Assembly (NCBI RefSeq): GCF_007197885.1
Contig: NZ_VKKG01000006.1
Coordinates: 186,001 to 250,000, forward strand
DNA length: 64,000 nt
Origin: Tessaracoccus rhinocerotis
GTDB taxonomy: Bacteria; Actinomycetota; Actinomycetes; Propionibacteriales; Propionibacteriaceae
Direction of reading: 5' to 3'
The notes under the pieces were generated by a model. That model was given only the letters and a program-made list of their open reading frames with translations, was not told the origin of the DNA and did no database searches. The position numbers and the translations under genes are program-made. This document shows, in pieces, positions 27,572-47,292 of this stretch; the stretch's first letter is position 1, and each line of letters opens with the position of its first letter.

Positions 27572-28420
27572 ATGAGGACCGTGCGCACCGTCGCCGAACT
27601 CCGCGAGGCCGTGGCATCGACGCGCGCCGGTGGGGGCCGGGTCGGCTTCGTGCCCACCATGGGCGCCCTCCACGAGGGACACCTCTCGCTGGTGCGCGCC
27701 GCCCGGGCGGCCACCGACCTCGTCGTCGTCTCGGTGTTCGTGAACCCCACCCAGTTCAACGAGGCCTCGGACCTGGCCGCGTACCCGCGCGACGAGGCCC
27801 GCGACGCGGAACTCGCCGCAGGCGCCGGAGCGGACCTGCTGTTCGCGCCGGAGGCCGAAGAGGTATACCCGCCCGGCCACTCCACCACGGTCTCTGTCTC
27901 GGGGGTGAGCGAACCCCTCGAGGGTGCCCATCGCGGTGCCGTCCACTTCGACGGGGTGGCGACGGTGGTGGCCAAGCTGCTGGTGGCCGTCGCCCCGGAC
28001 GTGGTCTGGTTCGGGCAGAAGGACGCCCAGCAGGTCGCAGTGGTGCGCCGCCTGGTTGCCGACCTCGGCCTGCCGGTGGCCATCGAGGTCGGCCCCACCG
28101 TCCGCGAGGACGACGGCTTGGCGATGTCCAGCCGCAACACCCGCCTGAACCCTGCCGACCGGCAACGGGCGCTGGCGCTCAAGGCCGGCCTCGACGCCGT
28201 CGCCGCAGCCGCCGCCTCCGGTGCCGCACCGCGCGAGGCGGAGCTCGCCGGGCGGCACACGATGGAACGCCGGGGCATCACGCCCGAGTACCTCGTGCTG
28301 GTGGACCCCGACACCTTCGGCCACGCCGACCGGCTGCCGGCGCTCGCCGTCGTCGCCGCCACCGTCGGGCCCGTGCGTCTCATCGACAACCTGCCCGTCC
28401 CCGCCAAGGAGCACCCCTGA
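27572..28420 (+). CDS. panC: Pantothenate synthetase
   Basis: The 282-residue enzyme joins pantoate and beta-alanine using ATP to make pantothenate. The HIGH-like motif is [14 protein letters not shown] (HEGH at 34-37), and the second signature is [15 protein letters not shown] with later AMSSRN. Length fits the family. GGGAGGG lies 6 nt before ATG 27572. It is first in panC-panD-panB, with panD starting inside its stop codon. Confidence 0.96.
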
Positions 28421-28809
28421 TGCAGCGCACCATGCTGAAGTCGAAGATCCACCGCGCCACCGTCACCGACGCCGACCTCCACTACGTCGGGTCGATCACC
28501 ATCGACCCCGACCTCCTCGAGGCCGCAGACATCCACGAGTACGAGCAGGTGGCCGTGGTCAACATCGACAACGGCCAGCGCTTCGAGACCTACACCATCG
28601 CCGGGACCCGCGGCTCCGGGGAGGTCAAGGTCAACGGCGCCGCCGCCCGGCTCGTGCACCGCGGGGACCTGGTGATCGTCATCTCCTACGCCCAGTACGA
28701 CGCGGCAGAGCTCGCCGGGCACGAGCCCGTCGTCGTGCACGTGGCCCGGGGCAGCAACGCGGTGCTCGAGGTCGATGCCGAGGTTGCCACCCTCCGGACG
28801 GGGAACTGA
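28420..28809 (+). CDS. panD: Aspartate 1-decarboxylase (pyruvoyl precursor)
   Basis: The 129-residue protein makes beta-alanine from aspartate. The self-cleavage site is Gly24-Ser25 in YVGSITID; the new Ser N-terminus becomes the pyruvoyl group. [20 protein letters not shown] and [10 protein letters not shown] are conserved. The ATG overlaps the panC stop (TGATG). It supplies the beta-alanine used by panC. Confidence 0.95.
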
Positions 28810-28814
28810 CGACG

Positions 28815-29699
28815 ATGTCGGCCACGCCCCCGGCCCGCCGGGCCACCACGCTGCCGGGTCTCGCCGCGATGAAGGCCGCCGACGAGAAGATCGTGATGGT
28901 CACCGCCTACGACTACCCGAGCGCCCTCGCCGCCGAGGCGGCGGGAGTCGACGTCGTCCTGGTCGGCGACTCCGGTGCGATGACCGTGCTGGGCCATTCG
29001 AGCACCGTCGGCGTCACCGTCGCGGAGATGCTCGTCCTGGCCGGTGCCGTGCGACGTGGCCTGAGCACCCCGCTGCTGGTGGTCGACCTGCCGTTCGGGT
29101 CCTACGAGACCAGCGACGAGCAGGCGGTCGCCACAGCCGTGCGCTTCGTCAAGGAGGCGGGCGCCGACGCCGTCAAGCTCGAGGGGGGCGGGGCGATGTC
29201 GGTGTCCCGCGTCCGGGCGATCATCGCCGCCGGCATCCCCGTGATGGGACACGTCGGCCTCACCCCGCAGACCGCGACCGCCCTCGGCGGGTACCGGGCC
29301 CAGGGCCGCACCGCCGTGGCGGCCCGGCGGATCGCGCAGGAGGCCCGCGCCCTCGAGGAGGCGGGTTGCTTCAGCATCGTGTTGGAGGCGGTGCCCTCCG
29401 AGGTGGCCGACGCGATCATGCCGTGGTTGGGGGCGGTCGTGATCGGGATCGGGGCCGGACCCGGAACGGACGGGCAGGTGCTGGTCTTCCACGACCTGCT
29501 GGGCATGTCCTCCGGCGGTTCGGCCCGCTTCGTGAAGACCTACGCGGACCTCGGCGCCCAGATGGCCGACGGCGTGCGCCGCTACGCCGACGACGTCCGC
29601 GCCGGCACCTACCCCGGCCCTGAGCACTGCTACCCGATCGAGCCGGCCGAACTGGCCGCCTTCCTGGCCGATCCCACTCGCGACGCCCCGGCGGAGTAG
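28815..29699 (+). CDS. panB: 3-methyl-2-oxobutanoate hydroxymethyltransferase
   Basis: The 294-residue TIM-barrel enzyme adds a hydroxymethyl group from methylenetetrahydrofolate to ketoisovalerate, toward pantoate. It carries MVTAYDYPSALAAEAAGVDVVLVGDSGAMTVLGH, VKLEGGG and MGHVGLTPQ, which hold the metal- and substrate-binding residues. It starts 5 bp after panD. panE (ketopantoate reductase) is not in the window. Confidence 0.95.
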   Translation: MSATPPARRATTLPGLAAMKAADEKIVMVTAYDYPSALAAEAAGVDVVLVGDSGAMTVLGHSSTVGVTVAEMLVLAGAVRRGLSTPLLVVDLPFGSYETSDEQAVATAVRFVKEAGADAVKLEGGGAMSVSRVRAIIAAGIPVMGHVGLTPQTATALGGYRAQGRTAVAARRIAQEARALEEAGCFSIVLEAVPSEVADAIMPWLGAVVIGIGAGPGTDGQVLVFHDLLGMSSGGSARFVKTYADLGAQMADGVRRYADDVRAGTYPGPEHCYPIEPAELAAFLADPTRDAPAE

Positions 29700-29715
29700 C
29701 CACCTGCTCCATCCA

Positions 29716-29771
29716 GCGCAACACTGTTGCGCAAGGCGCTGTGGTCGGCCCCCACCGCAACACTGTCGCGC
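29716..29771. repeat. Two related palindromes after panB
   Basis: GCGCAACA-C-TGTTGCGC (29716-29732) is a perfect 8-bp hairpin. A second, imperfect copy (CGCAACACTGTCGCG, 29756-29770) follows. Both may act as terminators between panB and the convergent NlpC/P60 gene, or be remnants of a small repeated element. Confidence 0.55.
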
Positions 29772-29838
29772 GGGTGAAAAGGAGCAGCGCCCGCACCACG
29801 GGGGATTGGTGCAGGCGCTGCGGATCTGGGGGGGAGGG

Positions 29839-30759
29839 TCAGCTGACGACGCGGACCGCTCCGGAGAAGGGCATCGAGTTGACACCGGCGACGCGGACAC
29901 CGGTGCGCGGGTTGGCGGCGTCGACGATCTTGCCGTCGCCGATGTAGATGCCCACGTGGCTGATGGGGGAGTAGTAGAACACCAGGTCACCGGGCTGCAG
30001 GTTGGACTTGGAGACGCGGGTCCCGGCCGAGTACTGGGCGCCGGAGCTGCGCGGCAGGGTGATGCCCACCTGGCGGTAGGCCCAGCTGGTCAGGCCGGAG
30101 CAGTCGAAGGAGTTCGGGCCGGAGCTGGCGTAGCTGTAGCTGCTGCCCACCTTGGACAGGGCCGCGTCGACGATGGTGTCGCCCAGCGACAGGGAGATCG
30201 GCTGCTCGACGGGGACGCCGCTGATGGCGGGGGCCGCGGCCGGGATGCTGGTCACGGCGGGCTTGGTGGAGCTGGAGAACTGGACGATGTTGTTGATGAC
30301 CCAGTCCGTGGCGGAGGTGAAGGTGCCGTTGTCCGTCTCGATGGTCTTGGTCACGGCCCAGGAGCGGCAACCACCCCTGCCGGTCTGCGCCGTGTCGCAC
30401 TCGGTGCGCCAGCGCCGGCCGTCCTCGCCCACCCAGTCACCGTTGGCGGCCAGTGGGTTGCCGGCCCACGCGGAACGGTCCGAGGGGAGGTAGGTCAGGT
30501 TGTTGAAGACCCAGCCGTCGTGGGCGACGTAGCGGCCCTTGTACAGGACGACGGTGCTGGCCCAGATGTCCGTGGAGCAGCGAACGACGGTGGAGGAGTA
30601 CATCTCGCAGTCGGTGCGCCAGTAGCGGCCGTTGACGAGGTGGTCCCCCGGCTGGGTGTAGACCGTCGTGGTGGCGGCCTGCGCGTTGCCGGGGTTCGCG
30701 ATCCCCAGGACCAGCCCGAAGAGGGCGGCCGTGGTGGCGATCAGGAGCTTCTTGAACAT
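29839..30759 (-). CDS. Secreted NlpC/P60 cell-wall peptidase with N-terminal Cys module
   Basis: The 306-residue protein has a signal peptide (MFKKLLIATTAALFGLVLGIANPGNAQA). Residues about 30-165 match the C-terminal module of the CAP protein at 138-1064, including RTxC, RC, GGC, VFNNLTYLPS and DWVxNN. The C-terminal ~110 residues are NlpC/P60: FDCSGLTSWAYRQVGITLP holds the catalytic Cys, and PISHVGIYIGDGKIVDA the His. Such enzymes cut peptidoglycan stem peptides. GGAAGG precedes ATG 30759, so the longer open frame is not used. It is divergent from the lasso cluster; a link is not shown. Confidence 0.9.
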   Translation of the reverse strand: MFKKLLIATTAALFGLVLGIANPGNAQAATTTVYTQPGDHLVNGRYWRTDCEMYSSTVVRCSTDIWASTVVLYKGRYVAHDGWVFNNLTYLPSDRSAWAGNPLAANGDWVGEDGRRWRTECDTAQTGRGGCRSWAVTKTIETDNGTFTSATDWVINNIVQFSSSTKPAVTSIPAAAPAISGVPVEQPISLSLGDTIVDAALSKVGSSYSYASSGPNSFDCSGLTSWAYRQVGITLPRSSGAQYSAGTRVSKSNLQPGDLVFYYSPISHVGIYIGDGKIVDAANPRTGVRVAGVNSMPFSGAVRVVS

Positions 30760-30907
30760 GCTTGGGTGGGCCTTCCGTGTTGCGACCTCGGAAGCATAGG
30801 CAGACGTACCTGAGAAATCCAAATGGAATCCTCAGGATCGTGGGCCTGGTCAGCGTGGCAGGGCCTCTAGAACCCGTAGTGAAACTGAGAAAACTCAGAC
30901 GAAACAC

Positions 30908-30923
30908 GGGTTGAAATCAACCC
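30908..30923. promoter_or_regulatory. Perfect palindrome upstream of the lasso cluster
   Basis: GGGTTGA-AA-TCAACCC is a 7+7 bp palindrome 72 bp upstream of the -10 candidate of the cluster. A second small palindrome (GGGGA-TTC-TCCCC, 30935-30947) follows. They are plausible binding sites for a cluster regulator not in the window. Confidence 0.55.
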
Positions 30924-30983
30924 TTCCCAAGCGTGGGGATTCTCCCCTAGACTCAAGCCCATCGGTACTACGACGGGCCGATG

Positions 30984-30995
30984 TGTAATCGGGGG
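30984..30995 (+). promoter_or_regulatory. Leaderless-type promoter -10 of the lasso cluster
   Basis: TGTAAT (30984-30989) is followed by 6 nt (CGGGGG) and ATG 30996. The alternative start ATG 31002 could use the GGGGG run as a weak ribosome-binding site. Confidence 0.5.
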
Positions 30996-31268
30996 ATGCA
31001 CATGAAACTTCGCGCGAACGACATCACGTGGCGAGAGATCGACGGCGATCTGGTCATTCTCGACCTGCGCTCATCCACGTACCTCACCACCAACGCCAGC
31101 GGCGCTGTGCTGATGAAGGAACTCACCGACGAACGTACCGACGACGAACTCGTCGGTGCCCTCGTCGGCGCCTACGACATCAGCGAGACCCAGGCCGAGA
31201 GCGACGTGCGCAGTTTCGTCCAGGCCCTTCGTGACGGTGGCCTGCTCGAGGAGCAGCCCGTCCATTGA
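30996..31268 (+). CDS. PqqD-like leader-binding protein (lasso B1, RRE)
   Basis: The 90-residue protein has the PqqD fold: LRANDITWREIDGDLVILDLRSSTYLTTNASGAVLMKELTDERTDDELVGALVGAYDISETQAESDVRSFVQALRDGGLL in sequence order of strands and helices. In lasso systems B1 is a stand-alone RiPP recognition element that grips the YxxP part of the leader and delivers the precursor to the peptidase and cyclase. It is the first gene of the cluster. The start is ATG 30996 or ATG 31002. Confidence 0.85.
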   Translation: MHMKLRANDITWREIDGDLVILDLRSSTYLTTNASGAVLMKELTDERTDDELVGALVGAYDISETQAESDVRSFVQALRDGGLLEEQPVH

Positions 31269-31334
31269 GACGCGACGCGGTCCGTGGCGACCGTGACGTG
31301 AAGAGTAACGACCACCTTGGGGGAGGTGAAAACT

Positions 31335-31460
31335 ATGCAGACCTACGAGGCTCCGCAGCTGACCACCGTCGGCTCACTGAAGGACCTGACGCTCGGTGAA
31401 GGTTGGGCGGGTAACGACGACGTCCTTCTGTGGTTCATCCGTTACGGCGAACTGTCCTGA
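31335..31460 (+). CDS. Lasso-type precursor peptide
   Basis: This 41-codon gene is preceded by a strong site (GGGGGAGGTG, 7 nt before ATG 31335). The leader is MQTYEAPQLTTVGSLKDLTL (20 residues). Counting back from the core, Tyr is -17, Pro -14, Leu -12 and Thr -2, the positions conserved in lasso leaders. The core of 21 residues starts GEGWAGNDD and ends FIRYGELS. A ring from Gly1 to Asp8 or Asp9 is possible. The last residue is Ser, the target of lasso kinases in other systems. The gene is short and easily missed by automated annotation. Confidence 0.85.
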   Translation: MQTYEAPQLTTVGSLKDLTLGEGWAGNDDVLLWFIRYGELS

Positions 31461-31475
31461 CATGCAGTACCAAAC

Positions 31476-31510
31476 GCTCGGGGGTTGCCGCCAAACGGTG
31501 ACCCCCGAGC
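31476..31510. terminator. 10-bp hairpin between precursor and cyclase genes
   Basis: GCTCGGGGGT (31476-31485) pairs exactly with ACCCCCGAGC (31501-31510). It lies 15 bp after the precursor stop. A partial terminator here would raise precursor over enzymes, a layout common in RiPP operons. Confidence 0.7.
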
Positions 31511-31541
31511 AATGTCCCGGCCGAGCGGAGAGGAGATCCCG

Positions 31542-32711
31542 TTGCACAAGCCGATGACCACTGGTGACTTCGTCCGGAGCTCACCGCTCGAGGTTGCCAC
31601 CGGATTCGTCTACGGACTGCTCCCGCGCACGCCGCTGCCGCGGACGGGCTCGACTCCGCGCCAGGCGCTCGACGACGCCATCCGCCCCGCCCTGCTCGAC
31701 GGCCCGTGCTTCGTGACCTTCTCGGGCGGCAGGGACTCCTCGGCCGTCCTGGCCGCCGCCGCCGCGCTCGCGCGCCGCGAGGGGCACGACCTGCCGATCC
31801 CGGTCACGCGCCGCTACCCGGACCTGCCTGACACGGACGAGTCCGAGTGGCAGCGCCTGGTCATCGACCACCTCGGACTCGAGGACTGGGTCCGCTTCGA
31901 GTTCACCGCGGGGGAGACCGACCTGCTCGGCGAGACCGCCCGTTCGGCAGTGCTGCGTCGCGGCGTGGTCTGGCCGGCCGCCGTCCACACGCAGGGCACG
32001 ATGTACTCGCAGCTGGGATCCGGATCGCTGATGACCGGCGAGGGTGGCGACGCCGTGCTGGGGCTGCGGCGTGTGACGCCACTGACCGTCCTGCGGCGGG
32101 GGAGACGGCCCAGCCCGAACCTGGTGCGTCGCGCCGTCGACTCACTCCTGCCCCGCCCGCTGCGGAGGCGCCGAGCGGCGAGCGCCGGACGCCGGAGCAC
32201 GCACGCCCGCTGGCTGCGACCGGCCGCCCTCGAGGAGCACGTCGCAACCCTTTCGGCTGAGGAGGCCCAGGAACCACTGCGCTACGACGAGGCCACCTGG
32301 TTCCTCTCGCGCCGCCGCTTCCTCGACGTCCTCGCCCACAACCAGGCTGCCGAGGCCGCCACCTACGGCATCCGGACCCTGGACCCGCTCATCGACCACG
32401 GCTTCCTCGCGGCACTCGCCCGCTCGGGCGCCGGCTGGGGCTACAACGGCCGCACCGCGACGATGCGCGCGCTCTTCAGTGACGTGCTCCCCGAGGCGGT
32501 CATCGCACGATCCACCAAGGCCCGCTTCAACCACGCCTACAGCGGCGAGAGCACCCGGGAGTTCGCACGAAGTTGGGACGGCTCCGGCGTGGACCCGGAA
32601 CTCGTGGACGTCGAGGCCCTCCGCGAGGTCTGGCTCTCCGAGGAGCCGACGATGGCCACCGGGTTGCTGTTGCACAGCGCCTGGCTCGCCGCCCAGGAGG
32701 ACGGGGCATGA
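31542..32711 (+). CDS. Lasso cyclase (asparagine-synthetase-like), short form without amidotransferase domain
   Basis: The 389-residue protein (TTG 31542, 6 nt after GGAGAGGAG; ATG 31554 is possible) has the ATP-binding loop FSGGRDSSAVLAAAAAL at residues 60-76 and GEGGDAVLGLRR later, as in asparagine synthetase and lasso cyclases. Such cyclases adenylate the ring Asp or Glu and join it to the core N-terminus. Usual lasso cyclases have about 500-600 residues with an N-terminal glutaminase-like domain. Here only some 55 residues come before the loop, so that domain is missing. The C-terminal half has conserved RSTKARFNHAYSGE. It overlaps the next gene by 4 bp. Confidence 0.82.
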   Translation: MHKPMTTGDFVRSSPLEVATGFVYGLLPRTPLPRTGSTPRQALDDAIRPALLDGPCFVTFSGGRDSSAVLAAAAALARREGHDLPIPVTRRYPDLPDTDESEWQRLVIDHLGLEDWVRFEFTAGETDLLGETARSAVLRRGVVWPAAVHTQGTMYSQLGSGSLMTGEGGDAVLGLRRVTPLTVLRRGRRPSPNLVRRAVDSLLPRPLRRRRAASAGRRSTHARWLRPAALEEHVATLSAEEAQEPLRYDEATWFLSRRRFLDVLAHNQAAEAATYGIRTLDPLIDHGFLAALARSGAGWGYNGRTATMRALFSDVLPEAVIARSTKARFNHAYSGESTREFARSWDGSGVDPELVDVEALREVWLSEEPTMATGLLLHSAWLAAQEDGA

Positions 32712-33160
32712 GGATCAACAGGCTGGTTGCCGAACTTCCCGCCACGCTGGTGGCCGCCGGGGTGGCGCTCGTGGTCGAGGTGGGGCTGAGGACGACGTCG
32801 CTGCCCAGGCTGGCCCGGCTCCTCGGGACGCCGCTGGCCGTCGGGACCGACGCGGCCGGTCCGGAGGCGATGACCGCTCCCGCCGCCCTGCGCCTCGAGC
32901 CGTGGGCGCGCAGGCGGGTGCGTGCCACGCGCCGCGTCCTGCGGCGCTGGCCCCTCGGTGACACCTGCCTGCGCCAGGCCTTGGTCAGCGGCCAGCGGCT
33001 GCGGCGGCTGGGGCCGTCGCTCCATGTGGGGGTGGCGAAGATCGACGGCGAGATCCGGGCCCACGCCTGGCTCGTGATCCGGGGCGGGGTACTCGACCCG
33101 ATGGCGGCCGCCGCCAGCTATCTCGATCTCGCCCAGACCGACCCAGGACGGCACAAGTGA
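32708..33160 (+). CDS. Lasso leader peptidase (B2, transglutaminase-like)
   Basis: The 150-residue protein has the B2 pattern: Cys87 in LGDTCLRQALVSGQRLRRLG, His119 in IRAHAWLVIRGG and Asp130 in VLDPM, a Cys-His-Asp triad. B2 cuts the leader after B1 presents it, next to the -2 Thr. ATG 32708 overlaps the cyclase stop (ATGA). Confidence 0.88.
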   Translation: MRINRLVAELPATLVAAGVALVVEVGLRTTSLPRLARLLGTPLAVGTDAAGPEAMTAPAALRLEPWARRRVRATRRVLRRWPLGDTCLRQALVSGQRLRRLGPSLHVGVAKIDGEIRAHAWLVIRGGVLDPMAAAASYLDLAQTDPGRHK

Positions 33161-34095
33161 CCCCAGTGACCAAGCTCTACGGACTCGCGGTCCGCTCCGA
33201 GCTGCCCCTGCACCAGAGCCGCTTCCTGCCCGAGCAGACGCCGGTGGACCTCGAGATCGTGATGGGGCCGCAGGCTCCCCGCACCGACCAGGAGCCGCCC
33301 GGCCGGGTGTTGCTGCACCTGCAGGTCGACCGCCAGTACTACACGGCAACGGAGACCGACGACGACTACCTCCTGCGCTTCTACAGCACCTGTGACGTCC
33401 ACATCTCCAAGGACCTGCGGCGCGCCGTGGTCCGCCTCTACCCCGACGCCGACCCGGACATCGCCGCGGTCCTCGCCGGCGGGACGGTGCTGGCCTTCGT
33501 CCTGTCCATGCGGGGTGAGGCGGTGCTGCATGCCAGCGCCGTCCAGGTCGGGGACGCCGCCGTCGCCTTCGTCGGGGCCTCCGGGATGGGCAAGTCCACC
33601 TCGGCGACGCTCATGTGCGCCGACGGCGCGAAGCTGATCACCGACGACCTGCTCGTCCTGGACCTCGCCGCGACGCCGCCCACGTGCGCGCTCGGCGCCA
33701 CCGAGCTGCGGCTGCGCAAGTCCGCCGGGGAGCTCTCGGACCGGTTCGAGGACGCGCCGGGGCGCCGCGTGACCGGGGACGCACGTGACGCCATCGCCGC
33801 ACAGTCCGCCACCACGGAGGACCTCCCGTTGCGCGCCATCATCGTGCCGGCGCCGGACCGGTCGGGACGCACCGACGCAGTGATCGAGCAGCGCGACGCC
33901 ATGACCTCGTTCCTGCTGCTGTCCCGGTTCCCGCGCCTGCTGGGCTGGGAGGACGAGTCGATCCTCGAGCGGCACTTCCAGCAGCTGGGCGACCTGATCG
34001 AGAAGGTGCCGGTCTACATCGCGAGGCTGCCCTGGGGCCCGCCGTTCCCGGACGACGTCGCCGCCTCGATCCGTGGCGCGGTCGGCGTCGGCTGA
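33157..34095 (+). CDS. HPr-kinase-like protein of the lasso cluster
   Basis: The 312-residue protein has an HPr-kinase fold in its C-terminal half: a Walker A loop GASGMGKST at residues 140-148, His125 in VLHASAV and the ITDDLL acidic motif at 161-166. In the paeninodin system a related kinase (PadeK) phosphorylates the C-terminal Ser of the precursor. Here the precursor also ends in Ser, so the same reaction is likely. GTG 33157 overlaps the B2 stop (GTGA). Confidence 0.85.
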   Translation: MTPVTKLYGLAVRSELPLHQSRFLPEQTPVDLEIVMGPQAPRTDQEPPGRVLLHLQVDRQYYTATETDDDYLLRFYSTCDVHISKDLRRAVVRLYPDADPDIAAVLAGGTVLAFVLSMRGEAVLHASAVQVGDAAVAFVGASGMGKSTSATLMCADGAKLITDDLLVLDLAATPPTCALGATELRLRKSAGELSDRFEDAPGRRVTGDARDAIAAQSATTEDLPLRAIIVPAPDRSGRTDAVIEQRDAMTSFLLLSRFPRLLGWEDESILERHFQQLGDLIEKVPVYIARLPWGPPFPDDVAASIRGAVGVG

Positions 34096-34108
34096 CGCGA
34101 CGCGTGGC

Positions 34109-35224
34109 TCAGGCCAGCTGGGTGGCCTCGACCTTGGTCAGGTAGGCATCGATGACCTCGGGGGAGGCGGGCACCCGCGGTCCGGACTCCTCGGTGGGAC
34201 GCAGCCGGTCCACGACACCCCTGGCGGCGCGTCCGGCGATGCTGGCGCCCGTCCCGAAGAGCCCAGGCCGCAGCCCCCGCGTGACCAGTCGGACCCAGGA
34301 AGCGTCCTTGCGGAGGCCTTGGACCGGCCAGCGCGCGTCCACGGCCGCCAGCACCGCCCGCATGCCCGGGCCGAGGCCGAGCCGCGCCTCGAGGTCCTCC
34401 GGGATCGGTGTGCCGAGCAGCCGGTGGCCCCGGCCGAGGACGGCCGCCACCTGCACCCCCGCCCCCCAGGTCTCGGCCCGGGCGACGACGTCGTCCCAGT
34501 CGGGCACCTGCCGCGCGAGCTGGTCCGCGTCGAGGACGTGGCCGAGCTTGGTGGCGCCGATGAGGGCTGCGTGCTGGCAGACGTGGACGAGCGCGTCGGC
34601 CGGGGACAATGCCCACAGCTTCGCCGGGCCGATCATCACCGGAACCCGGCGCGCGAGCAGCGCCTCGGCTGTGACGTCGAAGCGGCGGCGCACGCTGCCC
34701 ATCACCACCATCGACCAGTGGAGGTCCATCACCACGCCGGCCTCGTTGACCAGGGCCACCTCGCCGGGCAGCTCCTCGCTCAGGAGGGACTCGTCGCTCA
34801 GGATGATCCGCCACCCCGCGTCGATGAGCCGGTTGCAGGTCTCGCGGAACTGGTCCGGACCCACGAGCAGGTCCAGGTCCTTGTAGAAGCGGAGCCCGGG
34901 GATGGGATGAGCGAACTCGGACAGCAGGGGACCCTTGAACGCCAACCAGTCCACCCCGGTCAGCACTCCTGCCACCCCGCCCAGGAGCGCAGAGGTGCGC
35001 AGGTGGTTCACCAGGGCTCGGGCGCGGTCCTCCCGCAGCGCCCCGGCGACGTCAGGGTACGAATCGCGCAGCGCGACATGGGTCAGAGGTGCGATGCGGT
35101 GGTAGCGCGCCCCGGCGACCACCTCGTCGACGAGTCCCGGCTCCTCCGGGAGGTGCGGCTGCGCGCCGCGACAGACGTCGACAAGTGCCCGGTCAACCCC
35201 CTGCTGCAGCGCGGTTCGGCGCAT
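34109..35224 (-). CDS. Nucleotidyltransferase-family protein (NTP_transf_5-like)
   Basis: The 371-residue protein contains GVDWLAFKGPLLSEF and FYKDLDLLVGPDQFRETCNRLIDAGW (metal-binding D-L-D), with later ADALVHVCQHA, which match the NTP_transf_5 nucleotidyltransferases found near lasso and other kinase-bearing clusters. It ends 13 bp after the kinase gene on the opposite strand and is divergent from the exporter. It may add a nucleotide or further phosphate to the peptide; this is inference. ATG 35224 follows GGGGAGGAG; a GTG at 35233 is possible. Confidence 0.82.
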   Translation of the reverse strand: MRRTALQQGVDRALVDVCRGAQPHLPEEPGLVDEVVAGARYHRIAPLTHVALRDSYPDVAGALREDRARALVNHLRTSALLGGVAGVLTGVDWLAFKGPLLSEFAHPIPGLRFYKDLDLLVGPDQFRETCNRLIDAGWRIILSDESLLSEELPGEVALVNEAGVVMDLHWSMVVMGSVRRRFDVTAEALLARRVPVMIGPAKLWALSPADALVHVCQHAALIGATKLGHVLDADQLARQVPDWDDVVARAETWGAGVQVAAVLGRGHRLLGTPIPEDLEARLGLGPGMRAVLAAVDARWPVQGLRKDASWVRLVTRGLRPGLFGTGASIAGRAARGVVDRLRPTEESGPRVPASPEVIDAYLTKVEATQLA

Positions 35225-35375
35225 GGCTCCCACTCCTCCCCCAAGGTCACGCGTGGGTCACAGCCCACACGGTACTGGCATTGGCCCCACGGCGTCCGGA
35301 TCAGCGGTTAAATGGACCCCACGGGTTCTGGCAAGGAGTGCCGCGCCCCGTGGTCTTTGGTGAATCGGGGGGTTC

Positions 35376-37238
35376 ATGGACGAGGAACGGGTGGATTCCG
35401 TCTCACTGCGGGTGGCCGCGCGCTCGGAGAAGAAGTCGCTCGGGAGGCTCTCGAGCCTCGTGCGGATGAGTCTCTCGCTGGTGTGGTCGTCGGGCCGCTC
35501 GCTGTTCATCGCACTGGTGGTGCTCCAACTCGTGGCCGCCGGCGCCCTCGCCGGCCAGGTGCTGGCGGTCCAGGCGGTGCTGGACGCCATCCTCGGTGCG
35601 GGCGGGGTGGACGCCGTGGTCCGGCCGGCCCTGCTGCTCGCGGGACTCACTGCGGTCTCGATGATCGCTGCCGGCGCCCAGGGCCAGGTGCAGCGGCTGC
35701 TGGCGGAACTGGTCTCCCGCGCGATGTGGCACCGCGTGCTGGGCGTGGCCACCGGCGTCGGACTCCGGCACTTCGAGAGCCCCGAGTTCTACAACCGGCT
35801 CAACCGGGTGCAGACCAGCGCGTTGTCGCGGCCGTACCAGGTCACGCAGGGCCTGCTCGGGATGGTCGGCGCGCTGGCGGCGTCGATCGGTGTGGGCATC
35901 GCCCTGGTCAGCGTCTCGCCGCTGCTCCTGCCCCTGGTGGTCATCGGTGGGGTGCCGATCCTGCTCACCAGCCGGCGCGAGTCCCGGTTGGAGTTCGAGT
36001 TCTCGGTGCGCCAGACCGTCTCGATGCGCTGGCGACAGTACTTCACCGTCCTCCAGACCGGCCGGGACGAGGCGAAGGAGGTCCGGGCGTTCGGGCTGGC
36101 GCCCTGGCTGCTGCGTCGCTTCGACGAGCACTACGGGAGCTACCTCGACGACCTGGGCCGCCACGTGAGACGCCGCACCGTGCTGATGGTGCTGGGGCAG
36201 GTCGGTTCCGCGCTCGTGCTCGTCGCCACGCTGCTGGTGCTCGTCTGGCTGATCGCCCGAGGTGACATCGGCGTGGCAGGCGCCGGCGCGGCCATCGTGG
36301 CCATCCGCATGCTCGCCACCCAGGTCCAGAGCCTGTTCCGCGGCGTCCAGACCATCTTCGAGTCCGGCTTGTTCCTCGACGACCTGAACGGCTTCCTCGC
36401 CCTCGGCGAGGCGGCGCGGGAGGAGGACAGTGGCGACGAGGCGCCGTCGGGCTTCCTCGAGATCGAGGCCAGCGGGGTCCACTTCCGCTACCCGGGATCG
36501 GAGACGGAGGCGCTCAGGGGCGTCAACATCCGGCTGGGCGCAGGCGAGGTGGTGGCGCTGGTGGGCGAGAACGGCTCCGGCAAGACCACGCTTGCCAAGC
36601 TGCTGGCAGGCCTCTACGAACCCGACGCCGGCGCCATCCGGTGGGACGGCAGGGAGATCCGGGAGTTCCGGCCCAGCAGCCTGCGCGAGCGCATCACGGT
36701 GGTCTTCCAGGACTTCGTCCGCTACGCGCTGCCGGCGCGGGAGAACATCAGCGTCGGCCGCGTGGACGAGCCCACCGACGAGCTGCGCGTGCGGCAGGCC
36801 GCCGCGGCCGCGGGTGCGACGTCGGCCCTGGAGTCGCTGCCGCAGGGCTACGACACCATCCTGAGCCGCCTGTTCAGCGGCGGCCGGGAGCTCTCCGGTG
36901 GCCAGTGGCAGCGGGTGGCGCTGGCGCGGTCGTTCTACCGCGACGCGCCGCTGGTGATCCTCGACGAGCCGAGCGCGGCCCTGGATCCCCGGGCCGAGCA
37001 CGAGCTCTTCTCCACCCTCCGGGACGCCCTGCACGGCCGGACGGCGCTGTTCATCTCGCACCGCTTCTCCACCGTCCGCGGCGCGGACCGGATCTACGTG
37101 CTCAACGAGGGCGAGGTGGTGGAGGAGGGCAGCCACGAGGCCCTGCTCGCTGCCGACGGCCGTTATGCAGAGCTGTTCCGGCTGCAGTCGGACGCGTACG
37201 TCGCCCGCGGGGGCAAGGCCGGTGAGAGCGCCAAGTAA
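35376..37238 (+). CDS. ABC exporter with fused ATPase (lasso D)
   Basis: The 620-residue protein has about six membrane helices in residues 30-330 and a C-terminal ATPase: Walker A GENGSGKTTLAK, signature ELSGGQWQRVALARSF, Walker B LVILDEPSAALD. This is the homodimeric export type used to release RiPPs and give self-immunity. TTAAAT (35307-35312) may be the -10. ATG 35376 follows GGGGGG. It is the last gene of the cluster. Confidence 0.88.
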   Translation: MDEERVDSVSLRVAARSEKKSLGRLSSLVRMSLSLVWSSGRSLFIALVVLQLVAAGALAGQVLAVQAVLDAILGAGGVDAVVRPALLLAGLTAVSMIAAGAQGQVQRLLAELVSRAMWHRVLGVATGVGLRHFESPEFYNRLNRVQTSALSRPYQVTQGLLGMVGALAASIGVGIALVSVSPLLLPLVVIGGVPILLTSRRESRLEFEFSVRQTVSMRWRQYFTVLQTGRDEAKEVRAFGLAPWLLRRFDEHYGSYLDDLGRHVRRRTVLMVLGQVGSALVLVATLLVLVWLIARGDIGVAGAGAAIVAIRMLATQVQSLFRGVQTIFESGLFLDDLNGFLALGEAAREEDSGDEAPSGFLEIEASGVHFRYPGSETEALRGVNIRLGAGEVVALVGENGSGKTTLAKLLAGLYEPDAGAIRWDGREIREFRPSSLRERITVVFQDFVRYALPARENISVGRVDEPTDELRVRQAAAAAGATSALESLPQGYDTILSRLFSGGRELSGGQWQRVALARSFYRDAPLVILDEPSAALDPRAEHELFSTLRDALHGRTALFISHRFSTVRGADRIYVLNEGEVVEEGSHEALLAADGRYAELFRLQSDAYVARGGKAGESAK

Positions 37239-37283
37239 CTCGTGTCTGGTTCGAGACAGCAGTAGTGCGAGACGTACTGACGC

Positions 37284-37395
37284 GGAGGACGCGCGAGCTT
37301 GGAGCGGACGGCACTAAACACGGAGCCGTCCGCTCACCCGACAAGGAGGACGCGCGAGCCGGAGCGGACGGCACCGGAGACGGAGCTGTCCGCTC
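37284..37395. repeat. Two tandem ~51-bp hairpin units
   Basis: Unit 1 (37284-37335) and unit 2 (37345-37395) share GGAGGACGCGCGAGC and then a hairpin GAGCGGACGGC / GCCGTCCGCTC (perfect 11 bp in unit 1, one mismatch in unit 2) with 12-nt loops. They lie soon after the exporter stop and could end transcription, but the repeat of the whole unit suggests a small duplicated element. Confidence 0.7.
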
Positions 37396-37563
37396 GGTCC
37401 GAGGCACCCAGATCCCGGTCGCGGCAAGAGCCGCCCGGCCGGGTTCCTGGCCGTGTGAACCGCGGAATCCAGCTTCGAAACGCTCCGAAACGATCAACCC
37501 GACTCTGACCACGCCCTGAACGTCCACCATTTGGACTTGAAGATAACAATTTGGCCTCAGGCG

Positions 37564-37628
37564 TTGACAGTGGACCCGGAGCACGGGTTACGGTCGAAAC
37601 CGCACAGCCGAGCATCGAAACGGTTTCG
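37564..37628 (+). promoter_or_regulatory. Promoter with LacI-family operators
   Basis: TTGACA (37564-37569) and TACGGT (37589-37594, spacing 19) are the likely -35/-10. CGGT-CGAA-ACCG (37591-37602) overlaps the -10. CGAAAC-G-GTTTCG (37616-37628) lies just downstream, a perfect LacI-type operator like that at 3528. Confidence 0.65.
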
Positions 37629-37661
37629 GGGGTGGGAAGAGCTACTGACGCAAGGGAGCGT

Positions 37662-38663
37662 ATGAGCATCAAGGAATCCGCTGTTGACGTGGCGACGGCG
37701 CCGGTCGAGGCGCTGCCCGACGCGTCGCCGTCCGACCGCAGACGACGGCCCAGAAGGGCTCGCAGCACGTGGCGCCGGTCATTCGCCAGGGACTGGCGCC
37801 TCTACACGCTGCTGGTCCTGCCCGTGGTGTTCCTGGTCGTCTTCAGGTACGTCCCGATGGCCGGCAACGTGATCGCCTTCCGCCGCTACCGCCCGGGCGG
37901 CAGCATGTTCGGCGACGAGTGGGTCGGCATGCACTACATCGAGCTGTTCATCAACGACCCGACGTTCTGGCGCGTGTTCGCCAACACCCTCATCCTGGGT
38001 GCGCTGAGCCTCGTGATCGTATTCCCGCTGCCCATCATCCTGGCGCTGATGCTGAATGAGCTCCGCTCCCAACGGTTCAAGCGCGTGGCGCAGTCCATCT
38101 CGTACCTGCCGCACTTCATGAGTGTCGTCATCGTGGCCGGCGTCGTGCTCCAGCTCACCTCGGCGCGCGGCTCGATCAACCAGCTCCTGGACGTCGTCGG
38201 CATCGAGTCCGTCCCGTTCATGCAGTTGTCCGAGTGGTTCCGCACCATCTACGTCGGCTCCGAGATCTGGCAGACCGTCGGCTGGGGCACCATCCTCTAC
38301 CTCGCCGCGCTGTCCACCATCGACCCGCAGCTCTACGAGGCTGCCCGGATCGACGGCGCCGGCCGCTGGCGCCAGACCTGGCACGTCACGCTGCCCGGCA
38401 TCCGTCCCACCATGATCGTGCTCCTGATCCTGAACATCGGCACCTTCATGGCGGTCGGATTCGAGAAGATCCTCCTGCTCTACAACCCGTTGCTGTACCC
38501 GACGGCGGACGTCATCGCGACCTACCTGTTCCGCGTCGGCATCTTTTCCAGCCAGTTCTCCTACGCCGCCGCGATCGGCCTGTTCGAGGCACTCATCGGC
38601 CTGACGCTGATCCTCTCGGCGAACTGGATCTCCAAGAAGACCGTCGGAACGAGCCTGTGGTGA
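37662..38663 (+). CDS. Oligosaccharide ABC permease (LplB type)
   Basis: The 333-residue membrane protein belongs to the LplB group: WRLYTLLVLPVVFLVVFRYVPMAGNVIAF near the start, and the EAA loop QLYEAARIDGAGRWRQTWHVTLPGIRPT. LplB/YtcP pairs often carry complex plant oligosaccharides such as aldouronates. About six helices follow a charged N-terminal tail. ATG 37662 follows AAGGGAG. It opens a transport operon regulated by the upstream operators. Confidence 0.9.
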   Translation: MSIKESAVDVATAPVEALPDASPSDRRRRPRRARSTWRRSFARDWRLYTLLVLPVVFLVVFRYVPMAGNVIAFRRYRPGGSMFGDEWVGMHYIELFINDPTFWRVFANTLILGALSLVIVFPLPIILALMLNELRSQRFKRVAQSISYLPHFMSVVIVAGVVLQLTSARGSINQLLDVVGIESVPFMQLSEWFRTIYVGSEIWQTVGWGTILYLAALSTIDPQLYEAARIDGAGRWRQTWHVTLPGIRPTMIVLLILNIGTFMAVGFEKILLLYNPLLYPTADVIATYLFRVGIFSSQFSYAAAIGLFEALIGLTLILSANWISKKTVGTSLW

Positions 38664-39601
38664 CCAACAACACGATCCTGGACCCGCGCAAGCGCGCGGC
38701 GCGCATCTTCGGCCCGTCGGTGGTGGGCGGCATCAGGGACTCCCGCAGCTACACCGCATTCCGATGGCTGAACGCCGCCCTGCTGGTGGTGATCTGCTTC
38801 CTGACGCTGTACCCGTTCCTCAACATCGTCGCGCAGGCGTTCAGCTCTGAGGCCTTCATCAACTCCGGCCAGGTGAACCTCGTGCCGCGCGGCTTCAACA
38901 TCTCCACGTTCAGCTACGTGCTGGGCGACCCGATGTTCTGGCGCAACTACGGCAACACCGTGCTCTACACCGTCGTGGCGACGGCGATCGCGATGTTCCT
39001 CACCACCACGTTCGCCTACGCCCTGTCCAAGCACCACCTGAAGGGCCGCACCTTCTTCATCGGGCTCGCGGTGTTCACCATGTTCTTCAACGGCGGCCTG
39101 ATCCCCAACTACATCCTGATCTCGACGCTCGGGATGAAGAACACCATCTGGGCCATCGTGCTGCCCAACGCCATCAGCGTGTTCAACCTGCTGGTGATGA
39201 AGTCCTTCTTCGAGAACTTCCCGACGGACCTCGAGGAGGCCGCCGCCATCGACGGCCTCAACACCTACGGCATCCTGGCGCGGGTGGTGCTGCCGCTGAG
39301 CAAGGCGGTGATCGCGACGATGGTGCTGTTCTACGCCGTGTCGTTCTGGAACTCCTGGTTCACGGCATTCCTGTACCTGGACCGCTCCGAGCTCTACCCG
39401 GTCACCGTCTACCTGCGGAACCTGATCGCAGGCGCGACGGCCGCGGACCCGTCGGCGCAGCAGGCGGGCGAGGCGACCCAGGTGGCCTCCAACGTCAAGG
39501 CCGTGACCATGCTCCTGATCATGGCGCCCATCATCAGCGTCTACCCGTTCATCCAGAAGTACTTCGTGTCGGGCGTGATGCTCGGCTCGGTCAAGCAGTG
39601 A
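38660..39601 (+). CDS. Oligosaccharide ABC permease (YtcP/LplC type)
   Basis: The 313-residue protein is the partner permease: six membrane segments and EAA loop DLEEAAAIDGLNTYGILARVVLPLSKA. It starts with GTG 38660, overlapping the previous stop (GTGA). The end QKYFVSGVMLGSVKQ is normal for this type. Confidence 0.9.
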   Translation: MTNNTILDPRKRAARIFGPSVVGGIRDSRSYTAFRWLNAALLVVICFLTLYPFLNIVAQAFSSEAFINSGQVNLVPRGFNISTFSYVLGDPMFWRNYGNTVLYTVVATAIAMFLTTTFAYALSKHHLKGRTFFIGLAVFTMFFNGGLIPNYILISTLGMKNTIWAIVLPNAISVFNLLVMKSFFENFPTDLEEAAAIDGLNTYGILARVVLPLSKAVIATMVLFYAVSFWNSWFTAFLYLDRSELYPVTVYLRNLIAGATAADPSAQQAGEATQVASNVKAVTMLLIMAPIISVYPFIQKYFVSGVMLGSVKQ

Positions 39602-39633
39602 CTCCACCACAACCCCCACGGAAGGAAACAACC

Positions 39634-41337
39634 ATGTACAACGCGATCCCGGCAGCGAGGCCGGCGCGACGACGAGGCGCGCGTGCGCTGGTGGCCGGAC
39701 TGACGGCCGCCGGGCTCCTGCTCACCGCCTGCGGCTCCGACGAACCCGGCGATGAGGGCGGCAACGACGAGCCCACCGCCGCCGACTTCGAGGGGCACGA
39801 CACCGGTGCCATGGCCGACTACGGCATCGGCACCACCTTCAAGGCCACCGAACCGGTCGAGTTCTCCCTGTTCTACCGTGACCACCCCAACTACCCGCTG
39901 CAGGACGACTGGCTGATCCTCGAGGCGCTCGAGGAGAACCAGAACGTCAGCTTCGACATCGTCTCGGCGCCGTTGAGTGACTGGGACCAGCGCAAGGCCA
40001 CCGTCATCGGTGCCGGCACCGACGTGCCCGAGATCATCTCGGTCACCTACCCCGGCCAGGAGGTTTCCTTCATCGCCGGCGGAGCCATCCTGCCCGTCAG
40101 CGACTACCTCGAGTACCTGCCCAACTTCACCGACAAGATGGAGAAGTGGGGCCTCACCGAGGTCATCGACAACCGGCTGCGCCAGGAGGACGGCAAGTTC
40201 TACCTCCTGCCCGGCCTGCGAGAGACCATCCGTGCCCAGTACACCTACACCGTCCGCGCCGACATCTGGGAGGAGCTCGGACTCACCCTGGAGCCAGAGA
40301 CCTTCGAGGAGTTCGCCGAGCAGCTGCGCACCGTCAAGGAGGCCTACCCCGACGCGTGGCCGCTGTCCGACCGTTGGTCGGCGAACGGCCCGCTCGAGGC
40401 GACCCTGAACTTCGCCGCGCCCAGCTTCGGCACGCACGCAGGCTGGGGCTACGGCGAGGGCGTCACCTGGGATCCGGAGGCGGAGGAGTACGTCTACACC
40501 GGCGCCACCGACGAGTACAAGGCGCTGGTCGAGTACTACGCGGGTCTGGTTGCCGACGGCCTGATGGATCCCGAGTCCCTCATTCAGGACGACGACCAGG
40601 CCATCCAGAAGTTCGGCTCGGGACAGTCCATGGCCATCGCCGGCAATGACCAGGAGGTGCTGCGCTACCGCACCACCTTCGAGGAGCTGGGCACCGACGC
40701 CGAGGTGGCGATGATCCGCGTCCCCGCCGGCCCCGCCGGAGACCTGTACGCCGCCGGCACTCGCATCCAGAGCGGCCTGATGATCTCCGCCGACGCCGCC
40801 GAGTCCGATCACTTCCTCACCCTGCTGCAGTTCATCGACTGGCTGTACTACTCCGACGAGGGTCTCGAGTTCTCCAAGTGGGGGATCGAGGGCGAGACCT
40901 ACACCAAGGCCGAGGACGGCACCCGGACCCTGGCCGAGGACATCGACATCAACGGCCTCAACGAGGGTGCGCCCAAGGTTCTGAACGTCGACTTCGGCTT
41001 CCACAATGGCGTCTGGATGCTCGAGCACGGCTCCACCACCGAGCTGGACCTGTCCATGCTCCGCCCCGAGGTGGTGGACTTCGTCGAGTCCATGAGCACC
41101 AAGGAGGAGATGCCGCTGCCGCCGGCGGCACCGCTCACCGAGCTGGAGCGCGAGCAGGCCTCGCTGTGGCAGACCGCGCTGCGTGACCACGTCTGGCAGA
41201 ACACCTCGCAGTTCATCCTCGGGCAGCGCCCGATGAGCGAGTGGGACGCCTACGTCGCCGAACTGGAGGGCATGAGCCTGCAGCAGTACGTCGACATGTT
41301 CAACGAAGCGCAGAAGCGCTTCGCCGGCGAGGGGTAG
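39634..41337 (+). CDS. Oligosaccharide-binding lipoprotein
   Basis: The 567-residue protein has a long basic signal with lipobox LLTAC (residue about 31). The mature part is of the large LplA-type binding proteins: FKATEPVEFSLFYRDHPNYP, TEVIDNRLRQEDGKFYLLPGLRETIRAQY. Length matches binding proteins for long oligosaccharides. GGAAGGAAA precedes ATG 39634. No ATPase gene is present in the operon. Confidence 0.9.
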   Translation: MYNAIPAARPARRRGARALVAGLTAAGLLLTACGSDEPGDEGGNDEPTAADFEGHDTGAMADYGIGTTFKATEPVEFSLFYRDHPNYPLQDDWLILEALEENQNVSFDIVSAPLSDWDQRKATVIGAGTDVPEIISVTYPGQEVSFIAGGAILPVSDYLEYLPNFTDKMEKWGLTEVIDNRLRQEDGKFYLLPGLRETIRAQYTYTVRADIWEELGLTLEPETFEEFAEQLRTVKEAYPDAWPLSDRWSANGPLEATLNFAAPSFGTHAGWGYGEGVTWDPEAEEYVYTGATDEYKALVEYYAGLVADGLMDPESLIQDDDQAIQKFGSGQSMAIAGNDQEVLRYRTTFEELGTDAEVAMIRVPAGPAGDLYAAGTRIQSGLMISADAAESDHFLTLLQFIDWLYYSDEGLEFSKWGIEGETYTKAEDGTRTLAEDIDINGLNEGAPKVLNVDFGFHNGVWMLEHGSTTELDLSMLRPEVVDFVESMSTKEEMPLPPAAPLTELEREQASLWQTALRDHVWQNTSQFILGQRPMSEWDAYVAELEGMSLQQYVDMFNEAQKRFAGEG

Positions 41338-41392
41338 CCCTCCCGGTCGGTCCGGCTGGGCGCCCGCGCCCGTCCGGACCCACCGGACCCGA

Positions 41393-41432
41393 GCGTGGCG
41401 ATCCGGATGCTTCACCATCCGGATCGCCACGC
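41393..41432. terminator. 17-bp perfect hairpin after the binding-protein gene
   Basis: GCGTGGCGATCCGGATG (41393-41409) pairs exactly with 41416-41432 across a 6-nt loop. It lies between the binding protein and GH39 genes. Like the hairpin at 5001 it has no T-tract and may set transporter and enzyme levels. Confidence 0.75.
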
Positions 41433-41458
41433 CCCTGCCCACCAGATGAGAGGAACCA

Positions 41459-43054
41459 ATGCCAACCGTCGTCCCCGCGCAACCGATCGGCGAGCTGGGT
41501 GAGGCATGGCGCTCCTGCGTGGGCACCGGTCGGCTCAACCTGGCGCTGCGCCACGACCACCTCGAGTCCCTGGCGATGGTGCAGCGCGACATCGGGTTCC
41601 GGTACCTGCGCGGCCACGGGCTCCTCTCCGACGACATGGGCATCCACCGCCCCTACGACGGAGGGGTGCGGCACGCGTTCACCCACGTGGACCTGGTCTT
41701 CGACTCGTGGCTCGCGCTCGGCATCCGCCCGTTCCTGGAGCTGGGCTTCATGCCGTCGGGCCTGGCCTCGGGCCAGGAGACAGTGTTCTGGTGGAAGGGC
41801 AACGTCACCCCACCCAACGACGAGGACGAGTGGGTGCGCCTCGTGCAGGCCACGCTCAGGCACCTCGTGGCCCGCTACGGCATCGACGAGGTGCGGACCT
41901 GGCCCATCGAGGTCTGGAACGAGCCGAACCTGACCAACTTCTGGAAGGACGCCGACCAGGCCGCGTACCTGCGCCTCTACGAGATCACGTCGCGGGCGGT
42001 CAAGGAGGTCGACTCCGACCTGCAGGTGGGCGGGCCCGCGATCTCTCCCGGATCCGATGATTGGTGGGAGCCGTTCGCCGAGTTCGTCACCGCACGCGAC
42101 CTGCCCGTCGACTTCGTCAGCCGCCACGCCTACAGCAGCGGGCCCGGGCAGCCGGTGCCGTTCGGTCGGTACCAGACCCAGCAGCCGCCCTCGTCGCTGC
42201 TGGAGCAGTTCGACTCGCCGCGGCGCCACCTGGCGGGCACCCGGCTGGCCGGGCTGCCGGTGCACATCACCGAGTTCAACACCTCCTACCGCCCGGACAA
42301 CCCCATCCACGACACGCCCTACAACGCCGCCTACCTCGCGCCCGTGCTGGCCGCCGGTGGCGACCTGGTGGACTCGTTCTCCTACTGGACGTTCTGCGAC
42401 GTCTTCGAGGAGGAGAACATCCCCACCTCCCTCTTCCACGGCGGGTTCGGGCTGCTGACCCACCGCCAGCTCCCCAAGCCCACCTACCACCTCTACTCGT
42501 TCATGGCCCGCCTCGGGAACGAGGTGCTGGCCCGCGGCGACGACCACCTGGTCACGCGCCACCCGGACGGTCGGCTGGCGATCCTCGCCTGGCAGCCCGT
42601 CGACGGCGCGGGCCCCGGCGCCGAGCGCAACACCGTGGAGCTTTCGCTGCCCTTCGAGGCGGCGACTGCGTCCCCGCACCCCAGGGAAACTGGAAAGGGC
42701 AGTCGCACTGAGGTGCGAGCGGCAGCGAGCCTCGAAGGGCAAGGTGTCACGACCGTCTACGCCCACCGGCGGCGGGTCTCGGAGTCCGACGGCAACGCGT
42801 GGGACGCGTGGCGCCAGCTCGGCCGGCCGCACCATCCCGGCGAGCGGACGCTGGAGCTGCTCCGTGAGGCCGCACGGCCGTCGCTGGAGCGCAGCACCCA
42901 TGAGCTCCACGACGGCAGGGTGCGGCTCACGCTGCACCTCAGCCGCCACGAGGCGACCCTTGTCGAGCTGGAGGCCGTGGCCGACGAGACCGAACCCTGG
43001 ATCGATGACAGCCGCATCCCCGGCTACGGACCGCACAAGGAGCAGAACCGGTGA
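41459..43054 (+). CDS. GH39 beta-xylosidase-like enzyme, with in-frame repeat insertion
   Basis: The 531-residue cytoplasmic enzyme has GH39 features: LNLALRHDHLESLAMVQRDIGFRYLRGHGLLSDDM at the start, acid/base Glu in IEVWNEPNLTNFW and nucleophile Glu in VHITEFNTSY. GH39 enzymes release xylose from xylo-oligosaccharides. At about residues 397-429 the sequence EAATASPHPRETGKG...EGQG is foreign to the family and coded by a REP-like repeat; flanking parts (VELSLPF / TVYAHRRRVSESDGN) look continuous. The reading frame is kept, so the enzyme may still fold. It overlaps GH42 by 4 bp. Confidence 0.85.
   Translation: MPTVVPAQPIGELGEAWRSCVGTGRLNLALRHDHLESLAMVQRDIGFRYLRGHGLLSDDMGIHRPYDGGVRHAFTHVDLVFDSWLALGIRPFLELGFMPSGLASGQETVFWWKGNVTPPNDEDEWVRLVQATLRHLVARYGIDEVRTWPIEVWNEPNLTNFWKDADQAAYLRLYEITSRAVKEVDSDLQVGGPAISPGSDDWWEPFAEFVTARDLPVDFVSRHAYSSGPGQPVPFGRYQTQQPPSSLLEQFDSPRRHLAGTRLAGLPVHITEFNTSYRPDNPIHDTPYNAAYLAPVLAAGGDLVDSFSYWTFCDVFEEENIPTSLFHGGFGLLTHRQLPKPTYHLYSFMARLGNEVLARGDDHLVTRHPDGRLAILAWQPVDGAGPGAERNTVELSLPFEAATASPHPRETGKGSRTEVRAAASLEGQGVTTVYAHRRRVSESDGNAWDAWRQLGRPHHPGERTLELLREAARPSLERSTHELHDGRVRLTLHLSRHEATLVELEAVADETEPWIDDSRIPGYGPHKEQNR
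42648..42746. repeat. REP-like hairpin repeat, copy B, inside GH39
   Basis: TGCCCTTCGAGGC (42648-42660) pairs with GCCTCGAAGGGCA (42729-42741), and GCGACTGC (42662-42669) with GCAGTCGC (42700-42707). 42709-42746 matches copy A at 1850-1887 in 36 of 38 bases. It adds about 30 codons without breaking the frame. Confidence 0.75.
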
Positions 43055-45099: not shown

Positions 45100-45101
45100 G
45101 G

Positions 45102-45113
45102 GAGGATGGGCGC
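45102..45113 (+). promoter_or_regulatory. -10-like box before the DUF624 gene
   Basis: GAGGAT (45102-45107) plus 6 nt leads to GTG 45114. It may be a second, internal promoter, or the GGAGGAT may serve as a ribosome-binding site in a read-through message. Confidence 0.4.
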
Positions 45114-45812: not shown

Positions 45813-45826
45813 CCGCCGGCGCGTGG

Positions 45827-45838
45827 GAGGCTGGGCGC
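45827..45838 (+). promoter_or_regulatory. Leaderless-type box (GAGGCT + 6 nt + ATG)
   Basis: GAGGCT (45827-45832) and GGGCGC precede ATG 45839, nearly identical to the DUF624 gene start region. Confidence 0.4.
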
Positions 45839-47285: not shown

Positions 47286-47292
47286 CCCCGAC

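Follow-up and report, generated by a model that had tools for sequence, protein, structure and literature searches.

A Tessaracoccus gene cluster with a one-domain cyclase, predicted to make a lasso peptide modified at its C-terminal serine

What does a compact bacterial gene cluster make when it combines a peptide precursor and an asparagine-synthetase-like enzyme with a kinase and a nucleotidyltransferase-like protein, and which residue of the product do these last two decorate? The question is raised by a stretch of Tessaracoccus rhinocerotis DNA (the window: 64,000 nucleotides of contig NZ_VKKG01000006.1), from a genome of 3.55 Mb, in which seven genes, called B1, A, C, B2, K, N and D, fill positions 31002-37238 as read from open reading frames (ORFs) and their translations (Table 1). 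The original prediction was a lasso-peptide cluster with an HPr-kinase-like protein (K) and a nucleotidyltransferase (N), in the order B1-A-C-B2-K on the forward strand, with N on the opposite strand and D again on the forward one. All seven genes are there in that arrangement, their catalytic motifs intact, and curated models, motifs and syntenic relatives agree on the assignment. The likely answer is a lasso-peptide pathway of class II, leading by the steps proposed below to a product that is modified on its C-terminal Ser; the stretch very probably makes a lasso peptide with a phosphate at the end of its tail. The original prediction made no mention of the one-domain nature of the cyclase, C, which is taken up further on.

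The lasso reading is well supported, because the precursor passes a lasso-leader model (NCBIfam lasso_leader_L3, 25.8 bits, cut-off 19), as B2 does its own, the lasso-B2 model (lasso_biosyn_B2, 49.8 bits, cut-off 33). Precursor A consists of a leader, MQTYEAPQLTTVGSLKDLTL, with the pattern YxxPxL...G and Thr at position -2, and a predicted core, GEGWAGNDDVLLWFIRYGELS; the predicted split after Leu(-1) is consistent with the Thr(-2) rule. The core has 21 residues and ends in ...YGELS, the C-terminal Ser21 being its sole Ser or Thr; Asp8 and Asp9 supply the acid expected at core position 7-9 of a lasso peptide. The recognition element for a ribosomally synthesized and post-translationally modified peptide (RiPP) is present in B1 (Pfam PqqD, 54.7 bits, cut-off 23.4; under the NCBIfam lasso_PqqD_Strm cut-off, 55.8 vs 70 bits), and the transglutaminase-like leader peptidase in B2 (Transglut_core3, 44.2 bits, cut-off 26), whose triad is kept across 29 aligned rows (Cys in 28, His in 27, Asp in 28; the misses fall in loci L053 and L046, where the best frames are possibly misplaced). 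C has the sequence features of an ATP-dependent, asparagine-synthetase-like macrolactam synthetase (Asn_synthase, 60.8 bits, cut-off 21, the match beginning at residue 40; SGGRDSS, GEGGD and K326 all kept). N and D match NTP_transf_5 (119.3 bits, cut-off 31.2) and ABC_tran (112.8 bits, cut-off 25), and the stop and start codons of C, B2 and K overlap.

Two relatives, Tessaracoccus sp. OS52 and T. oleiagri, carry the same set of genes. A profile search with the cyclase found 30 loci besides the window, all of them actinobacterial, in Tessaracoccus, Nocardioides, Occultella, Georgenia, Isoptericola, Microbacterium, Micropruina and other genera. With the window counted, K is present in 28/31 and N in 27/31; the loci without K are L046, a contig of a metagenome-assembled genome (L062) and a short contig (L063). 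A precursor can be identified in all 31, ending in Ser in 24, in Gly-Ser-Arg in six and in Leu in one (L062, doubtful).

Gene content, intact motifs, the one-domain cyclase and, among relatives, the conservation of Asp9 and of a C-terminal Ser are seen directly; every chemical step, together with threading, export and activity, is inferred, as follows: B1 would bind the leader through YEAPQL...G; K would phosphorylate Ser21 on the linear precursor; B2 would cleave after Thr(-2)-Leu(-1); C would adenylate Asp9 with ATP and join it to Gly1, giving a ring of nine residues with the tail passing through; N would put a sugar or a nucleotide onto the phosphate; finally, D would export the product. 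The masses originally offered for the core minus water, 2378.13 Da, and for the same with one phosphate, 2458.10 Da, are reproduced on recalculation (2378.133 and 2458.099 Da); a product bearing hexose on the phospho-Ser is calculated at 2620.15 or 2782.21 Da. Addition of a nucleoside monophosphate (NMP) shifts a mass by 305-345 Da.

N might not be the route to a hexose: it could be a true nucleotidyltransferase that transfers NMP onto the phospho-Ser, or it could serve self-protection. The chance of this is substantial, if short of even. Both Asp residues of the DxD motif and the third, in D(L/V)HW, are conserved in 27/27 aligned N sequences. In the pseudomycoidin system (psm, Bacillus pseudomycoides DSM 12442), PsmK phosphorylates the C-terminal Ser, and one or two hexoses follow, with PsmN (PMC9266682, PMC8498205); the review leaves open whether PsmN carries out nucleotidylation or glycosylation (PMC9266682). 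Against NMP transfer stand, by analogy with PsmN, the hexoses found on pseudomycoidin (PMC9266682). A search of solved structures with N returned six weak matches up to E 1, the best at 0.023, to unrelated proteins.

Lasso kinases of the HPr-like type are reported to target a C-terminal Ser by means of a His-Lys-Asp-Asp set (PMC9266682, PMC8498205); in K this set is H125, K146, D163 and D164 by alignment, matched to the published one by sequence position. Across 47 kinases the His, the Lys and the second Asp are invariant and the first Asp is kept in 46; a search of solved structures with K found HPr kinase at E 0.001, alongside P-loop matches of other families. The window has the catalytic set and the Ser-ending precursor of a PadeK-type system, and, as in pseudomycoidin, K and N share one cluster with such a precursor.

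How far the kinase and the Ser end go together can be counted in a class census that took all 97 B2 matches in 296 Actinomycetes genomes, regardless of kinase. K was scored at E <= 1e-20, loci with a weaker kinase match being set aside; no cyclase was located in 31/97 loci (possible misses), and many loci gave no precursor. Distinct precursors end in Ser in 27/30 cases with K and in 1/39 without (Fisher p 9e-15); the three K-bearing misses are versions of one chance ORF (L198, L257, L258), which is not leader-like. The kinase also follows the cyclase type: K is present in 18 of the 19 one-domain loci vs one of the 47 two-domain loci, 42 of which have no K match and four more weak matches only. 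In the wider set, the two-domain loci with a good kinase are L103, L121, L129 and L196. An earlier, mixed control of 90 loci (40 phylum loci, out of 47 that matched in addition to the window, and 48 class loci, together with L025 and with L211, picked by cyclase and not by B2) gave Ser ends in 18/24 distinct precursors with K and in 1/24 without.

Several observations count against the proposed pathway. The Hpr_kinase_C model is sub-threshold on K (22.9 vs 33.3 bits). BsfK, of the bsf cluster, phosphorylates Ser3 and not a C-terminal Ser (PMC10368454), so kinase family alone cannot fix the site. Six of the 24 K-bearing precursors of the mixed control do not end in Ser (L101, L102, L104, L103, one of L114 and the chance ORF of L198); those of L101, L102 and L104 are lasso-like, end in Pro and lie beside more distant kinases. 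Six closer relatives, with kinases of the same family, end in Gly-Ser-Arg (L053, Georgenia satyanarayanai; L060, Micropruina glycogenica; L054, L056, L058 and L061); their kinases group together (SH-aLRT, the Shimodaira-Hasegawa-like approximate likelihood-ratio test, 98), that is, one change on the kinase tree. No carboxypeptidase able to trim such tails was seen by eye among the ORFs of part of L061, the one of these six loci that was read. In L046 (Georgenia subflava) a one-domain cyclase accompanies a precursor that ends in Ser, with no K in the locus; L046 lies on the same contig as L045, and its cluster may borrow the kinase of the L045 cluster. Finally, on the cyclase tree three supported independent pairs bear on the link of K with Ser, too few to give a test any power. 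The link as an independent correlation was therefore set aside: strong as a pattern, it appears weak as independent evidence, because related clusters are counted repeatedly and independent origins are few.

BsfK and the divergent tails, Gly-Ser-Arg in six relatives and other ends in some distant loci, speak for a lasso pathway in which K is inactive or has its target in the leader or at a different residue, with the C-terminal Ser kept for some other reason. Such a pathway seems unlikely: the core offers K no second Ser or Thr, the catalytic residues are kept, and the final Ser is retained in tails that otherwise vary freely.

The cyclase itself departs from those of other lasso clusters. Its pyrophosphate loop, SGGRDSS, stands at residues 61-67 of 389, and the precursor stop lies no more than 87 codons ahead of it. 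Among 79 cyclase-like sequences, 43 have SGGRDSS (the window C and 42 relatives). In 38 of these, with a precursor just upstream, 73 to 120 codons separate the precursor stop from the loop, and in the remaining five (L062, two in L114, L199 and L209) at most 95 open codons precede it, so that no second domain fits ahead of the loop. A start-codon artefact, considered as the source of the missing domain, was set aside on the same spacings. The 36 other sequences, some of which may not be lasso cyclases (the second row of L211 resembles an ordinary asparagine synthetase), have at least 224 residues, stop to stop, before SGGxDS. C is accordingly without the N-terminal region of at least 200 residues ahead of the synthetase domain by which two-domain cyclases were defined, and it scores far under two NCBIfam models of lasso or macrolactam cyclases (NF033535, 11.7 bits, cut-off 525; NF033561, 33.1 bits, cut-off 300). 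On a synthetase-domain tree made by a quick method, the 43 lie on one side of a single branch (SH-aLRT 100), and on that tree they are one clade, a distinct lineage; D170 is conserved in 100% of its members and K326 in 97%. A search of solved structures with C matched E. coli asparagine synthetase B only.

The N-terminal region of lasso cyclases is commonly described as an amidotransferase-like relic. Ten of the 36 other sequences were scanned for it: a glutamine amidotransferase domain is over the Pfam cut-off in two (L098, L124) and sub-threshold in two (L186, L191), and in six the region has no recognised domain. Thirty members of the family showed no amidotransferase domain, though these had been trimmed to the match, so that an N-terminal domain is not excludable by this means. 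Searching 246 genomes of the class with a DNA pattern gave 10 matches and missed the window's own cyclase, which uses different codons; it is therefore no census.

Could so small a synthetase make a plain side-chain macrolactam, or some other amide, and the product not be a threaded lasso? The absent N-terminal part and the low NCBIfam scores would allow it, and the literature offered no characterised product of any cyclase of the clade, which also counts against the proposed pathway. The leader, B2 and precursor design are nevertheless of lasso type, the residues of the pyrophosphate loop, the GxGGD motif and the late Lys are kept, and the spacing of Asp9 is that of lasso peptides; the unthreaded product is thus very improbable.

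Where the ring would close is suggested by the relatives. Asp stands at core position 9 in 29/29 precursors beside one-domain cyclases in the class census, repeats counted and the chance ORF of L198, L257 and L258 left out. In a wider list of 36 precursors (L201a as re-read; the copies or near-copies L042, L043, L051 and L063 omitted, as was the doubtful precursor of L062, with no acid at 9), Asp9 is found in 26/28 outside a sister group of eight, the exceptions being L055 and L059. From this conservation it follows that the window ring is probably Gly1-Asp9; closure at Asp8 was rejected, as relatives have Asp9 in common and not Asp8.

The sister group of eight (SH-aLRT 92), made up of L045, L052 and the six Gly-Ser-Arg loci, fits less well and belongs with the unfavourable points: Gly1 and Asp10 are present in 8/8, position 10 is the only common acid, and the L053 precursor has no acid at positions 7-9. 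Lasso rings have 7-9 residues (PMC6784204). This group could form a ten-residue ring, or its leader could be cut one residue further on; the larger ring would be favoured, because Gly1 is constant while residue 2 varies.

Two further kinds of precursor were seen. The Isoptericola loci L055, L059 and L063 have unusual long cores (43 residues in L055, 41 in L059) with two Cys, a Ser end and no acid at 7-9 after Thr-X. In L197, L198, L200, L201, L202 and L204, two tandem precursors per cluster accompany a one-domain cyclase and a kinase; N is found in L201 only.

A more speculative extension, which we hold to be improbable, is that minimal one-domain cyclases co-evolved with the C-terminal-Ser kinase, the phosphorylated tail helping to position the peptide, and that the sister branch closes ten-residue rings, larger than the known seven to nine. 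If the proposals hold, a natural cyclase of about 390 residues with no more than the synthetase domain would lend itself to structural work and engineering, and the N-terminal part would be dispensable for tying the knot. The frequent pairing of cyclase and kinase would yield a testable idea on the reason for tail phosphorylation, and the eight-member group with Asp at position 10 would make the question of larger rings directly testable.

A silent or decayed remnant, which the patchy distribution might suggest (among 146 relatives in 36 genera, the cyclase is in three genomes of the window's genus, the window's included, and K in four of the sampled genomes, once in a cluster truncated at the end of a contig), is the least probable alternative, at slender odds, since all frames are open, stops and starts overlap and catalytic residues are kept.

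Table 1. Genes of the cluster, in window coordinates
Gene	Position	Strand	Description
B1	31002..31268	+	PqqD-like RiPP recognition element, putative leader binder; Pfam PqqD
A	31335..31460	+	41-aa precursor; GGGGGAGGTG precedes ATG; lasso_leader_L3, homologous precursors in relatives
C	31542..32711	+	asparagine-synthetase-like lasso cyclase (predicted), 389 aa, one domain; TTG start, alternative ATG 31554
B2	32708..33160	+	leader peptidase (predicted), Cys87-His119-Asp130; 4-nt overlap with C
K	33157..34095	+	HPr-kinase-like precursor kinase (predicted); GTG start; 4-nt overlap with B2
N	34109..35224	-	NTP_transf_5 nucleotidyltransferase-like tailoring enzyme (predicted); D116, D118, D167
D	35376..37238	+	ABC (ATP-binding cassette) exporter, permease and ATPase fused; Pfam ABC_tran

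Coding begins at about 31002, with alternative ATGs at 30981 and 30996; 30908-30980 is upstream DNA. A known RNA element in the region was considered and set aside: Rfam gave 0 matches above gathering scores in 28000-40000. Adjoining B1, at 29839-30822 on the reverse strand, is a secreted protein whose C-terminal part was judged by eye to be NlpC/P60-like. Among L034-L063 it has relatives in L034 only, one of them in the same place with 74% identity; with relatives in this one locus, it is probably a neighbour and not a cluster gene. Just 3' of D are two palindrome-like repeats of 35 nt (37301-37335 and 37361-37395, 86% alike), which may be paired terminators or a small repeat element. Farther 3' comes what is apparently an unrelated carbohydrate locus (37551-49221), with permeases for ABC sugar transport, a binding protein and ORFs resembling glycoside hydrolases (all named by eye).

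How much of this is new? The original prediction called the cluster probably undescribed. A literature search, with lasso-peptide databases outside its scope, found no account of such a K and N cluster in Actinobacteria, and none of Tessaracoccus lasso peptides; in the passages seen of PMC9287328, PMC9096227 and PMC6835275, which mention lasso peptides as well, "nucleotidyltransferase" denotes other genes. The combination of K and N had already been published, in pseudomycoidin, in bsf (PMC10368454) and in rumen bacteria (PMC7533575); because kinase and nucleotidyltransferase are thus on record, this part of the cluster adds a member to a known type of pathway. The kind of pathway would then be familiar, and it is the cyclase lineage for which a description was not found: no one-domain lasso cyclase lineage appeared in a search from which subscription papers largely fell outside, leaving novelty unproven, nor in the portions seen of PMC11420955, PMC6784204, PMC12427821 and PMC13352647, while PMC9774768 has a cyclase with an amidotransferase domain.

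Among characterised systems, psm resembles the window in joining lasso genes to the kinase PsmK and to PsmN, annotated as a nucleotidyltransferase, with phosphorylation of the C-terminal Ser; it differs in its Bacillus host, in its core, and in the place of N, which the review puts between B2 and D for Firmicutes clusters and which in the window is on the opposite strand. Paeninodin (pade), ThcoK and SyanK share the HPr-kinase homologue, the His-Lys-Asp-Asp set and the C-terminal Ser target (PMC9266682), but come from Firmicutes and a proteobacterium, and no N is named for them in the parts of that review seen. The bsf cluster of Bradymonas sediminis has A, B1, B2, C, D, K and N together, whereas its kinase acts on Ser3 and its precursor ends in Asp, with Ile at -2 (PMC10368454). 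The two-domain actinobacterial clusters of the census share a YxxPxL-type leader and a lasso B2 with the window, but their cyclases have at least 224 residues before SGGxDS, K is mostly absent, and their tails rarely end in Ser.

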